A stretch of 64,000 bases of DNA from Alicyclobacillus contaminans DSM 17975 (GTDB lineage: Bacteria > Bacillota > Bacilli > Alicyclobacillales > Alicyclobacillaceae), in contig NZ_AUCA01000001.1 in the NCBI RefSeq assembly GCF_000429525.1, positions 124,001-188,000 of the forward strand, read 5' to 3'. The notes beneath the pieces were generated by a model. It did no database searches. It was not told the origin of the DNA and saw nothing but the letters and a program-made list of their open reading frames with translations. Positions 23,419 to 27,044 of the stretch are shown piece by piece. Every line of letters starts with the position of its first letter. The first letter of the stretch is position 1. A program made the translations under genes and the position numbers.

Positions 23419-24105
23419 TCACGAATGCGCCTGGGTGAACTCCCCTTCCCAATCACCGTCTTTCAGCCAATGGAACAGCTGCGGTGCCTTCAAATACACG
23501 GTTTGATCTCCTGAGACGCAGGTCACCACGTCCTGCACGTACCGAATCTGGACCTGATGCGCACTCACCTGCACGAGGTACGAGGTCGGACAGAGTGTCA
23601 TGGTTTGATGGTTCACCGTCACCATGCGCAACTGTGCCGGACCGATGTTTCCCTGTAGGACAATACTCCGATCCGACGCGGGGATGTCCCCGAGGAACAG
23701 GGAGGCCCGGTTGAGCCACGACAGGACCTGCGTGGCGACACGCTGGGGACTTGCCGCATGCCATAGCATAAAACCTGGACCAGTTTCCACAGATATAGAC
23801 TGAATGGACGACGGCGCAGGGAATGACAGAACATGTTGCGCCGAGGCTGTCGTATTTTCGGCCTGTGTGCCGTGTGGCGCTTGGCGATGGGAGACCGCGT
23901 AAACGCCACCCACCAGGCAGGCGACCGCGGCCGTAGCCGCGACAAGCGATGGCCACGTTTCGAACCGTCCGCGTCGGCGACCGGGGGGAGGGGATGGGTT
24001 CATTCGCTGTTCGATGGCCAGCCAAATTGCTTTCTCCTTTTGAGGAGACATACGAATCTCGGAGACCATGGACAGTCTCTTGCGCACGTCTTCGTCAGAT
24101 GCCAT
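23419..24105 (-). CDS. putative membrane anti-sigma factor
   Basis: 228 residues. A short cytoplasmic N-terminus (about 1-50, containing EDVRKRLSMVSEIRMSPQKEKAIW) precedes one membrane segment (about 55-75, LVAATAAVACLVGGVYAV) and an extracytoplasmic domain of about 150 residues. This is the layout of anti-sigma factors. It begins one base after the stop of the sigma-region-4 gene, with AAAGGAGGTG inside that gene's end, so the two are co-translated. The family is assigned from layout and neighbour, not from a recognised zinc-binding motif, which is absent. Confidence 0.65.
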   Translation of the reverse strand: MASDEDVRKRLSMVSEIRMSPQKEKAIWLAIEQRMNPSPPPGRRRGRFETWPSLVAATAAVACLVGGVYAVSHRQAPHGTQAENTTASAQHVLSFPAPSSIQSISVETGPGFMLWHAASPQRVATQVLSWLNRASLFLGDIPASDRSIVLQGNIGPAQLRMVTVNHQTMTLCPTSYLVQVSAHQVQIRYVQDVVTCVSGDQTVYLKAPQLFHWLKDGDWEGEFTQAHS

Positions 24106-24106
24106 C

Positions 24107-24349
24107 TTACCGGTGCACCTCCTTTGATGTTTCCCCCAGTAGGTCACGGAGTTTGAGCATGGCCCGATGCGTTGAATTCCGCACCTTTTTTTCGGACCAA
24201 CCGAGAATCGCTGCGGTCTCCGGTACGGAGAAGTTTTCCACGTACCGCAGGATCACGACCTGGCGATAGCTGGGGTTCAGTTGGTGCAGCGAGGCTGCAA
24301 CCTCCACCATTAGGTCCATGGGCGGGGCCGGATCGCCGATGTCCAGCAA
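24107..24349 (-). CDS. sigma-70 family protein reduced to region 4
   Basis: About 80 residues, counted from a TTG at 24349. The body is ECF-type region 4: YRQVVILRYVENFSV, then the helix-turn-helix PETAAILGWSEKKVRNSTHRAMLKLRDLL. Region 2, which melts the -10, is missing: the frame is closed by a TGA only 14 codons upstream, and no frame of the roughly 220 bases up to the divergent operon encodes it. In-frame ATGs occur at about residues 11 and 14. It is either a truncated pseudogene or a half-sigma that needs a partner, as SigO/RsoA do in B. subtilis. Coupling to the anti-sigma gene is intact. Confidence 0.7.
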   Translation of the reverse strand: MLDIGDPAPPMDLMVEVAASLHQLNPSYRQVVILRYVENFSVPETAAILGWSEKKVRNSTHRAMLKLRDLLGETSKEVHR

Positions 24350-24568: not shown

Positions 24569-25630
24569 ATGACGCCCACGAGAGTTTGGACGTTTCTGCT
24601 ACCGAAGCTGAATCTGTGGATTTTGGCGGTGGTCGTGGCGGTGTTTGTGGTTATCGATCAACTCGCAATACCGCCCATTCTGGCCCATGAAGTGGTGCCG
24701 AATGCCGACTACCGGACGAAAGTGGACTACACGGATATTAAGGCGTTCATCGAGGAGGTCAATCGGGACCGGTCCCCGAAAATCATCCTGGTTGGCGACT
24801 CCATCACGCAGGGCGGCGGGGTTGCCAACGGCGACGAGACCATTTCGCATTACCTGCAGCAGAATGTATCCCGGGCCGGATACGCTTATCACGTATACAA
24901 TTTCGGCATTGAAGGCGCGGAACCCGGGGATTGCTACGCCATCGTCAAATCGCTGCGGCTCACCTCAAAAGATCTCGTCGTGTATGACATGAACGTGGGC
25001 GATTACGGCGTCAGTCCCGTTCGCTTTCGCGAAATCACGCCGATGCTCGTGCCGATGCCTGTGCATACCAAATCCACCGCGCTGGTCGATCCGGTCGAGG
25101 ATTGGCTGCGCCGCTTCGTGAACAACCACTGGAAGTTGTTTGCGTATCGCGGGATTGTCAAAACCTATCTCGCAAACTGGGGTGGAGGTCCGCCCATCAC
25201 GGCTTCCTCGACGAAGCACGCACCGGATCCACCGCCGTGGTACACCAAGGACTGGACCGCGCAGACGAAGGGCATGTGGAAACGCGGCAGCAACGTGTTT
25301 CATGACAACGACGGAGCGCTTACGTTCAACCGCTTGATGATTCAGGATGTACGGTCACACGGGGCCAAAATCCTCGTGTACAACATCCCTCTGAATCAGA
25401 AGATGATGGCGCAGTACCAGATGATAGACGAGCCGAAATACAAGCAGAACATCGCACGTCTCAAGGCTGCCATGCTGGGCGCCGGGGCCATCTATCGGGA
25501 CTACGAATACCTCATCCCGAGCGATGACTTCATCGACAGTCTGCATCCGACCCGTGCGGGCAATGAGATTTTGGCGAACCAACTGATGAAGGATCTGACA
25601 CCTTACTTTGCGACAGGGAGTTTATCATGA
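24569..25630 (+). CDS. membrane-anchored SGNH-type protein, DltD/AlgJ-like partner of MBOAT
   Basis: 353 residues. One N-terminal membrane anchor (about 14-36) and an extracytoplasmic SGNH hydrolase fold: S78 in LVGDSIT and the C-terminal D323/H326 pair in DSLHPT. Start ATG at 24569 follows TTCAGGGAGGG. Its stop overlaps the MBOAT start (ATGA). In envelope acylation systems, proteins of this class (DltD, AlgX/AlgJ, PatB) take the acyl group exported by the MBOAT and place it on a polymer. Which polymer is unknown; the operon lies beside envelope-stress regulators and close to envelope glycosylation genes. Confidence 0.82.
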   Translation: MTPTRVWTFLLPKLNLWILAVVVAVFVVIDQLAIPPILAHEVVPNADYRTKVDYTDIKAFIEEVNRDRSPKIILVGDSITQGGGVANGDETISHYLQQNVSRAGYAYHVYNFGIEGAEPGDCYAIVKSLRLTSKDLVVYDMNVGDYGVSPVRFREITPMLVPMPVHTKSTALVDPVEDWLRRFVNNHWKLFAYRGIVKTYLANWGGGPPITASSTKHAPDPPPWYTKDWTAQTKGMWKRGSNVFHDNDGALTFNRLMIQDVRSHGAKILVYNIPLNQKMMAQYQMIDEPKYKQNIARLKAAMLGAGAIYRDYEYLIPSDDFIDSLHPTRAGNEILANQLMKDLTPYFATGSLS

Positions 25631-26910
25631 TCTTTAATACGTGGACTTACGGGGCGTTTTGCGCGCTGACGTTTCTCGTCTATTGGTTTGTCTCTCCCCC
25701 CCGATGGCGATCCGCGGTTCTTCTGGTGGCCAGCTACGTGTTTTTCACCTATCACTATCCGTGGCATGCGCTGCTGATCTTTGGGATGACGGTGGTGGTG
25801 TACACGCTGTCGCTCGGCATCTTCCGATACCGGGACGCGCTTCGCCGAGGGGATCCACTGCGGTGGTACCAACATCCCAAGCTGTACATGATTGCCATCA
25901 TCGTCTTTTGCGTGGGAACGCTGTCCTATTACAAGTATCTGAAGATGGCCATCGCCAGCCTGAACGGTCTGCTTCACCTTGCCGACATTCACAAAACCTA
26001 CGCCATCCCATCGATGGTGGTCCCGCTCGGCATTTCGTTTTTCGTCTTTGAATTTATTCACTACGCCGTCGACGCGTACCAGGGCAAGGCGCAGCGCGTG
26101 AACTTTTTCCGATTTGCGGTGTTCATCATGTACTTTCCGACGCTGGTCTCGGGTCCCATCAAGAGATACCAAATTTTTGTAAACCAGATGTTTGAAATGA
26201 AGCGGTTCCGAATGGAGTATCTGAACGAGGGGCTGGCGCGAATCCTGATTGGCCTTGGCAAAAAGGTGATCATTGCGGATCAGATGACACCTTATGCCGC
26301 ACCGCTTTTGAACCCGCATGCGGCCACAGCAGGGCAGCTGTGGTTGGCCATGTACGCGTACGCCATGAAAATTTACTTCGATTTCTCCGGGTACTCGGAT
26401 ATCGCGATTGGCAGCGCCCGCCTGTTTGGATACCAGGTGCCGGAGAACTTCAATTTTCCGTATCTGCAGAAGAACATTGCGACGTTTTGGAACAACTGGC
26501 ACATGTCTTTGTCCAGTTGGATCCGGGATTACATCTACATTCCCCTTGGCGGCAATCGCGGCAGTGTGGCGTTTGCCGCGCGCAACAGTCTGATTGCCAT
26601 GGCCATCAGCGGTCTCTGGCACGGCGCGGCCTGGCATTTCGTGCTATGGGGCGTGTACCACGGCCTGGGTCTCGTTTGGATGCGATACTACGGGCACTGG
26701 AAGAAATCAGGCCAAGCCCCGGAATTTCTTGCGAGAGTCACCATTGGGACCGCGGGATTAAAACGGCCTCACATTGCGGGGATTCGCGATGTGCTGTCGA
26801 TTCTCGCGACGTTCCAATTCGTGTGCTTCGGGTGGATTTTGTTTTACTGTCCGAGCGTTCACACGGCGGCGTACGCTGTACTGAAAATGTTCGGTATCGT
26901 GGGAGGGTGA
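25627..26910 (+). CDS. MBOAT O-acyltransferase (DltB/AlgI family)
   Basis: 427 residues with about ten membrane segments. Family signatures are FPTLVSGPIKRY, FDFSGYSDIAIGSARLFG, FWNNWHMSLSSWIRDYIYIPLGG and the catalytic H332 in SGLWHGAAWHF. It moves acyl groups across the membrane from a cytoplasmic donor. It overlaps the SGNH gene by four bases and is followed after five bases by the DltX-like peptide. No DltA (adenylation) or DltC (carrier) gene is in the window, so the donor may be acyl-CoA, as for AlgI-type enzymes. Confidence 0.92.
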   Translation: MIFNTWTYGAFCALTFLVYWFVSPPRWRSAVLLVASYVFFTYHYPWHALLIFGMTVVVYTLSLGIFRYRDALRRGDPLRWYQHPKLYMIAIIVFCVGTLSYYKYLKMAIASLNGLLHLADIHKTYAIPSMVVPLGISFFVFEFIHYAVDAYQGKAQRVNFFRFAVFIMYFPTLVSGPIKRYQIFVNQMFEMKRFRMEYLNEGLARILIGLGKKVIIADQMTPYAAPLLNPHAATAGQLWLAMYAYAMKIYFDFSGYSDIAIGSARLFGYQVPENFNFPYLQKNIATFWNNWHMSLSSWIRDYIYIPLGGNRGSVAFAARNSLIAMAISGLWHGAAWHFVLWGVYHGLGLVWMRYYGHWKKSGQAPEFLARVTIGTAGLKRPHIAGIRDVLSILATFQFVCFGWILFYCPSVHTAAYAVLKMFGIVGG

Positions 26911-26915
26911 CCGGG

Positions 26916-27044
26916 ATGAAATTCTGGCAGTCGGCGAACTTCTGGCACGCGGTCTACAGCTGCGTCTTTTGGATAGTGCTGGTGACGGCCATTGTGCTGT
27001 GCAGTTCCGGTGTGGAGTCGAAGTTCATTTATACCGATTTTTAA
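26916..27044 (+). CDS. DltX-like 42-residue membrane peptide
   Basis: Begins five bases after the MBOAT stop, with GGGAGGGTGA as ribosome site. Residues about 12-32 form one membrane segment (YSCVFWIVLVTAIVLCSS) and the protein ends with KFIYTDF at the stop codon. This fits DltX of Gram-positive dlt operons: a short one-span protein whose extreme C-terminus carries an FIYxxF motif essential for D-alanine transfer. Such a peptide next to a non-dlt MBOAT/SGNH pair is unusual. The identification rests on size, topology, position and the C-terminal motif. Confidence 0.75.
   Translation: MKFWQSANFWHAVYSCVFWIVLVTAIVLCSSGVESKFIYTDF

Follow-up and report, generated by a model that had tools for sequence, protein, structure and literature searches.

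A conserved SGNH, MBOAT and microprotein cassette from Alicyclobacillus contaminans, with a candidate free acyl-tyrosine shuttle

The closest described systems are Dlt and the MBOAT/SGNH pairs of the PatA/PatB type. PatA carries acetyl from acetyl-CoA on the tyrosine of a hexapeptide motif, FxYxxF, and DltX has been described as the acyl-tyrosine carrier of Dlt (PMC12148441). In the same 2025 paper the acyl-tyrosine shuttle is reported for PatAB and extended by inference to further MBOAT/SGNH pairs, AlgI/AlgJ and PatA1/PatB1 are named alongside PatA/PatB, and the non-Dlt MBOAT/SGNH pathways are said to have no DltX-like microprotein, the hexapeptide being fused to the MBOAT (PMC12148441). A stretch of 64,000 nucleotides from Alicyclobacillus contaminans DSM 17975 (contig NZ_AUCA01000001.1, positions 124,001 to 188,000; here the window, numbered from its first letter) contains a cassette of another composition, in which an SGNH protein, an MBOAT and a small one-span peptide bearing this motif are encoded by three coupled genes. 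What is new is a shuttle that is a microprotein in its own right, in a system for which no carrier protein has been recognised; no description of a free shuttle without DltC was recognised in the open-licence literature, judged by titles and the beginnings of abstracts. The preliminary description of the locus had suggested that the cassette would extend DltX-type chemistry beyond D-alanylation, and this had to be corrected, the acyl-tyrosine shuttle of PatAB being already in print (PMC12148441).

A sequence check of the coordinates confirmed the SGNH–MBOAT–peptide genes at 24569-27044 on the + strand. The SGNH and MBOAT genes overlap by 4 bases and 5 bases separate the MBOAT from the peptide of 42 residues, as had been described. 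Pfam identifies the first gene as a GDSL lipase and the second as an MBOAT, the one MBOAT match in the whole A. contaminans genome, and gives the window peptide a chance-level match only (E 0.18). The features are as follows.

24569-25630, + strand: SGNH/GDSL-type protein, 353 aa (PF13472/PF00657), an N-terminal helix followed by a DltD-like SGNH domain.
24800-24802, + strand: codon of Ser78 (GDS), the proposed nucleophile, an invariant column of the SGNH alignment.
25535-25546, + strand: codons of Asp323 to His326, the DxxH of the proposed triad, invariant columns of the SGNH alignment.
25627-26910, + strand: MBOAT, 427 aa (PF03062), a short form, the additional helices and motif at the C-terminus of fused MBOATs being absent.
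26542-26559, + strand: PLGGNR segment, at the position of the DltC-docking helix of DltB in HMMER alignments.
26620-26622, + strand: codon of His332 (WHG), proposed as catalytic, an invariant column aligned with the WHG His of solved DltB.
26901-26907, + strand: GGGAGGG, Shine-Dalgarno-like, 5' of the peptide start (from the sequence and a start scan).
26916 (ATG) to 27042-27044 (TAA), + strand: one-span microprotein, 42 aa, the proposed free acyl shuttle.
27024-27041, + strand: codons of the hexapeptide FIYTDF, with that of Tyr39 at 27030-27032.

An alternative in-frame GTG start, in a 4-base overlap with the end of the MBOAT gene, would give a peptide of 45 aa. A scan for promoters and terminators at the cassette stayed at chance level.

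It is likely that the three separate chains encoded here make up an O-acyltransferase that modifies a polymer outside the cytoplasm, probably fed by acyl-CoA, with the free microprotein as its acyl-tyrosine shuttle. The MBOAT would receive its acyl group, most likely acetyl, from acyl-CoA on the cytoplasmic side, and its His332 would move the acyl to Tyr39 of the microprotein, the single helix of which would place the C-terminal FIYTDF at the outward opening of the MBOAT. From Tyr39 the acyl would pass to Ser78 of the SGNH protein, which is DltD-like and would be anchored in the membrane; this protein would esterify a wall or surface polymer, and a carrier protein would not be needed. In this scheme we infer the topology, the complex, the donor, the acyl-tyrosine intermediate and the polymer; the gene coupling, the conservation of the three genes and of their Tyr, His and Ser/Asp/His residues, and the non-DltB character of the MBOAT are read from the sequences. 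The preliminary description had spoken of a minimal acyl-transfer machine. As a three-gene cassette with a DltX-like shuttle this stands, while the acetyl-CoA donor and the polymer stay conjectural.

The window peptide has a single hydrophobic span (mean Kyte-Doolittle 2.34 over 19 residues) and the C-terminus KFIYTDF, which bears out the DltX-like FIYxxF ending noted earlier. Among 9,085 open reading frames (ORFs) of 25-65 aa, from all loci collected at that stage, 73 end in F.Y..F. Read by eye, 71 of these are MBOAT-linked microproteins, many of the loci being redundant, and 2 look like chance. None of the 425 window ORFs of this size has the ending, because the peptide is there read within a longer, mechanically called ORF of 234 aa. 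All 24 cassettes counted have the same F, I, Y and F in the hexapeptide, with mixed synonymous codons. Position 4 is T in 17, N in 3, R in 2, and S and Q in 1 each; position 5 is D in 15, N in 4, Q in 3, and R and G in 1 each. The cassette peptides are mostly 34-44 aa, varying with the start codon chosen. The conservation, the codon mix and the ORF background lead to the rejection of a chance ORF, and by sequence comparison the peptide is a conserved gene.

The Pfam DltX model (PF12459) matches neither the window peptide nor three of the four other cassette peptides scanned. The fourth, from L150, scores 13.3 bits against a cut-off of 25, where two true DltX controls score 35.6 and 51.1. The peptides are easily missed in annotation, being small and, in all five scanned, below this cut-off. 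In the alignment they fall on the C-terminal end of fused MBOATs, where these have their last helix and the motif.

A fused MBOAT of genome G435 (L162:8138-9559) has the tail GTESGFIYAQF, which is matched by the profile of the free peptides at E 8.7e-4. Recognition by the profile is weak, and the tail can be seen as linking free and fused shuttles in sequence.

The cassette is found at 25 loci: in the window, in L005, in nine genomes of a class sample and in 14 genomes outside the class (398 genomes each in the class and phylum samples). Besides the window's own, it thus occurs in 24 further genomes. A one-protein scan of genome contigs gave two loci, of which L005, on an uncultured Brevibacillus contig, is the useful one and the nearest relative found; it has the same three genes, with an MBOAT 67% identical in the best segment and a peptide of 36 aa ending SRFIYTDF. 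In the class sample, the nine best MBOAT matches after the query's own (E 4.3e-185 to 5.6e-86) all have the SGNH-MBOAT-peptide arrangement. Conservation of the peptide could be judged by a test set beforehand, in which ten relatives were picked by MBOAT alone (L005 and the nine class matches, E <= 5.6e-86), and all ten have a peptide with the motif.

A profile was built from 11 cassette peptides. It found 10 of 398 class-sample genomes at E <= 3.2e-16, all ten contributors to the profile, the next best match (E 8e-4) lying within a 354-aa frame. In the phylum sample it found 15 genomes besides the window's own, namely 14 outside the class and G435. The 14 out-of-class peptides (E 4.4e-13 to 2.4e-5), none of which was used to build the profile, all adjoin short MBOAT and SGNH genes. 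A layout script gave the SGNH-MBOAT-peptide order in 24 of the 25 loci; L151 fell beyond its distance limit and, examined separately, has the same gene order with ~0.3 kb between the MBOAT and the peptide ORF. All plasmid tblastn matches were below 60% identity.

A variant order, MBOAT-SGNH-peptide, is seen in G406 (L045:9363-11931), which is counted apart from the 25 cassettes. Its MBOAT is the next short MBOAT after the nine, with the segment FPLGGSR and a long branch; its second gene is labelled SGNH by position and size alone; and its peptide is a 61-aa ORF that ends EFIYMNF and overlaps the end of the second gene. Fused MBOATs coexist with the cassette in at least G409 (L066, L078, L082) and G133 (L067, L077).

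The cassette MBOAT is, on the evidence of models and trees, not a DltB. The NCBIfam DltB model (TIGR04091) gives the window MBOAT 212.1 bits against a cut-off of 375, four cassette MBOATs 199-212 bits and three fused MBOATs 154-164 bits, with two true DltBs at 477.4 and 498.8. In the trees, which were rooted at the midpoint only, the DltB set is apart on a 100/100 branch and the cassette MBOATs are on the fused side of that branch. The fused MBOATs form one group (82/91 with all columns; 100/99 and 96/99 in two trees of core columns). The cassette MBOATs are one group in the smaller trees (95/94; 81/60), a grouping that is unreliable with the 14 out-of-class loci added (52% of bootstrap trees). 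His332 lies in an invariant column of the MBOAT alignment. The window MBOAT ends KMFGIVGG and leaves the FxYxxF motif to the separate gene; in the alignment the cassette MBOATs terminate well short of the additional helices and motif that close the fused ones.

In solved DltB, DltC docks on a horizontal helix, with Met302, Val305, Ile306 and Met309 in Streptococcus thermophilus DltB (PMC11035591). In HMMER alignments this docking stretch lies after the WHxSLSxWxRD motif and is a hydrophobic, basic helix in true DltBs, where the window MBOAT has YIPLGGNR. Scored as [IVFLM]P[LMI]GGx[RK], the PLGGxR pattern is present in 24 of the 25 cassette MBOATs (the exception, L005, has SLGGNR), in 21 of 27 fused MBOATs and in the G406 variant. 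It is absent from all seven DltBs and from the MBOAT of a carrier-ligase operon, L084. An acyl-CoA donor is suggested because the motif-fused PatA uses acetyl-CoA and because PLGGxR is common among fused MBOATs.

Every one of the 16 cassette SGNHs aligned has the GDS, Asp323 and His326, and GDS and F.D..H are found in all 25 upstream genes (24/24 and L151). The top four structural matches of an AF2 model of the window SGNH (pLDDT 86.1, pTM 0.85) are DltD entries, aligned over 277-284 residues with Z 17.7-18.3, and the other matches listed have Z 14.0-16.9 over 164-199 residues; rows less than Z 1 apart are ties, so that DltD leads by its coverage no less than by its Z. The Pfam DltD model (PF04914) does not match the window SGNH. 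On eight other cassette SGNHs it gives two over the cut-off of 22.7 (26.3 and 28.7), one below (18.2) and five without a match; the L151 SGNH scores 22.5 and a true DltD control 261.3. The Asp-x-x-His block of the window SGNH reads DSLHP, and not the TDHHW (block V, DHHW family) that is reported for PatB1 (PMC9487903).

The preliminary description held that the genes for DltA and DltC are missing from the cassette. No dltA/dltC pair was recognised around any of the 25 cassettes, that of the window included, where larger ORFs were read by eye as far as each contig reached, over at most ~9 kb per side; nor did any of the 25 show a DltA-like gene within its operon. This flank reading in part listed only ORFs of at least 100 aa, so that the absence of DltC rests on genome-wide searches. 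At E <= 0.01 the DltC model (TIGR01688) has no match in 41 of 41 family genomes, the own genome included, or in 14 of 14 out-of-class cassette genomes. In 12 further cassette or variant genomes it is over the cut-off in G129, below it in five and without a match in six. A DltC over the cut-off is therefore present in 1 of the 26 cassette or variant genomes searched (1/12 and 0/14, one being the variant locus), as opposed to six of six dlt control genomes, and nearly all cassette genomes have no recognised DltC. DltA (TIGR01734), searched in the own family only, is over the cut-off in none of the 41 genomes. The check for a full dlt operon in the own genome, which had been called for, gave no DltC match and a best DltA match of 147.9 bits against 559.85.

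These searches bear on the possibility that the cassette is a Dlt-type amino-acyl module that D-alanylates or aminoacylates its polymer with the help of an unlinked carrier and ligase elsewhere in the genome. This is unlikely, although it has several points in its favour: the peptide motif is DltX-like and the SGNH fold DltD-like, the SGNHs of two relatives are over the Pfam DltD cut-off, matches to the DltC model below its cut-off occur in 5 of the 12 genomes, and the cassette genome G149 has a separate operon with a carrier, a ligase homologue, a DltX-like peptide and an MBOAT. Set against these are the DltC results of the own, family and out-of-class genomes, the single genome over the cut-off among the 12 others, and the replacement of the docking helix in cassette MBOATs by PLGGxR, which neither the MBOAT of the G149 carrier operon nor the seven dlt MBOATs have.

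The operon of G149 (L084:5749-9965 on contig G149:C13) is Dlt-like and includes a carrier protein (PF00550; 27 bits to the DltC model, below the cut-off) and a 400-aa class II aminoacyl-tRNA synthetase (aaRS)-like protein with 140 bits to PRK07080, an amino acid--[acyl-carrier-protein] ligase (cut-off 357); its best solved match is 3mey. It further encodes a GNAT, an MBOAT of 378 aa and a peptide of 39 aa with the C-terminus TFIYEGF, and the place of the SGNH is taken by a 299-aa gene of no family match. An aaRS-type carrier ligase may here replace DltA. At another locus, L156, an AMP-binding enzyme gene (PF00501) adjoins the cassette on the opposite strand.

It is also conceivable, and distinctly improbable, that the peptide is a structural subunit that joins MBOAT and SGNH while the acyl passes from the MBOAT directly to the SGNH or to a lipid acceptor. 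In favour of such a role, the Dlt peptide is reported, in a paper of 2023, to hold MBOAT and SGNH together. However, the C-terminal Tyr of F-I-Y-x-x-F, invariant in 24 of 24 cassettes, corresponds to the residue acetylated in PatA. That the cassette is a rearranged or decayed dlt operon, with dltB, dltX and dltD remaining after the loss of dltA and dltC, is very unlikely and was rejected on the trees, the replaced docking helix and a genome with both systems: its functional parts do match dltB, dltX and dltD, but the cassette MBOATs are outside the DltB group on the 100/100 branch, G129 holds a dltC-X-A-B-D operon ~2 Mb from its cassette, and the SGNH-MBOAT-peptide order is constant in all 25 cassettes counted.

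The association of MBOAT and peptide was modelled with a natural read-through of a relative, L148, whose chain (TGA read as Gly) joins the MBOAT, the intergenic stretch as a linker, and the peptide. AF2 gave pLDDT 86.3 and pTM 0.84, and the MBOAT core superimposes on DltB 6bug_C with Z 31.2 and an rmsd of 2.8 over 370 residues. Among the structures listed, DltB is the sole solved bacterial MBOAT.

Several observations weigh against an acyl-CoA-fed, three-chain acyltransferase with a free shuttle. The scheme is a prediction from sequences and models, and the peptide is a predicted gene product. In the L148 chain, residues 432-476 (the linker and the start of the peptide) have pLDDT below 50 and the last 27 residues 66-79. 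With a DltD-like SGNH and a DltX-like peptide, two of the three parts point towards Dlt, and the variable positions of the hexapeptide resemble those of DltX (FIYNEF, FIYDGF) and not the FIYFRF common in fused MBOATs. PLGGxR as a mark of acyl-CoA use is drawn from a correlation, and the strict pattern is absent from 6 of the 27 fused MBOATs. The DltC-model matches below the cut-off, in G133, G139, G149, G169 and G406, have E values from 1.2e-6 to 0.008, and the own genome has 22 DltA-model matches below the cut-off, so there may be an unrecognised carrier protein in cassette genomes. Only 1 of the 41 family genomes has the MBOAT (E <= 1e-20), a distribution that points to acquisition by transfer or to widespread loss.

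It is possible that the polymer in relatives of the window cassette is a pyruvylated wall polysaccharide. CsaB (TIGR03609) is over the cut-off in 9 of 10 class-sample cassette genomes and in 140 of 388 others (Fisher p 8e-4, kinship ignored). In three f37 genomes a csaB gene is within ~4 kb of the cassette; the scanned neighbours in L041 also include an SLH-domain protein and a WecG/TagA glycosyltransferase. Just upstream of the SGNH of L153, within 0.3 kb of the SGNH start, is a gene for a PF04230 pyruvyltransferase. Bacillus PatA1/PatB1, encoded next to csaB, O-acetylate the S-layer-anchoring wall polysaccharide (PMC9487903). A pyruvylated polymer is not claimed for A. contaminans itself because its genome has no TIGR03609 match at E <= 1e-30 and the CsaB test ignores kinship.

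Adjoining the cassette, at 24107-24349 on the - strand, is an 80-aa ORF, perhaps of a truncated sigma factor, with sigma-70 region 4 alone (PF08281, 54.3 bits) and in-frame stops upstream. Its end is overlapped by an ORF of 242 aa without a Pfam match (23419-24147, - strand).

The cassette is a conserved exception, in 25 sampled genomes, to the 2025 statement on non-Dlt pathways, and it separates the free shuttle from the carrier protein, two traits that have been described together. In genetic work the shuttle can here be removed, exchanged or mutated while the MBOAT stays intact, and the cassette may indicate a route to the evolution of the fused machines. There is about an even chance that such cassettes represent a phylum-wide class of acyl-CoA-fed envelope acyltransferases with a free acyl-tyrosine microprotein, bridging Dlt (free and carrier-fed) and PatA/AlgI (fused and CoA-fed); with a root on the DltB side, the free shuttle would be the older form and the fused form would have arisen through one fusion.

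With Dlt the cassette shares an MBOAT, an SGNH protein of DltD-like fold and a separate one-span microprotein ending FxYxxF. It differs in having no recognised DltA or DltC, in an MBOAT that scores below the DltB cut-off, falls outside the DltB group and is without the DltC-docking helix, and in a peptide that misses the Pfam DltX model. The L084 operon has a short DltX-like peptide and a short MBOAT in common with the cassette, but it has its own carrier and amino-acid--carrier ligase homologue, and its MBOAT is without PLGGxR. With the PatA/PatB type the cassette shares an MBOAT with the conserved His, an SGNH partner, the FxYxxF motif, a position on the same side of the DltB branch and the YIPLGGxR common to most motif-fused MBOATs. 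Its SGNH is without the TDHHW block of PatB1, and its motif is unfused, the last helix and motif being supplied by a separate gene.

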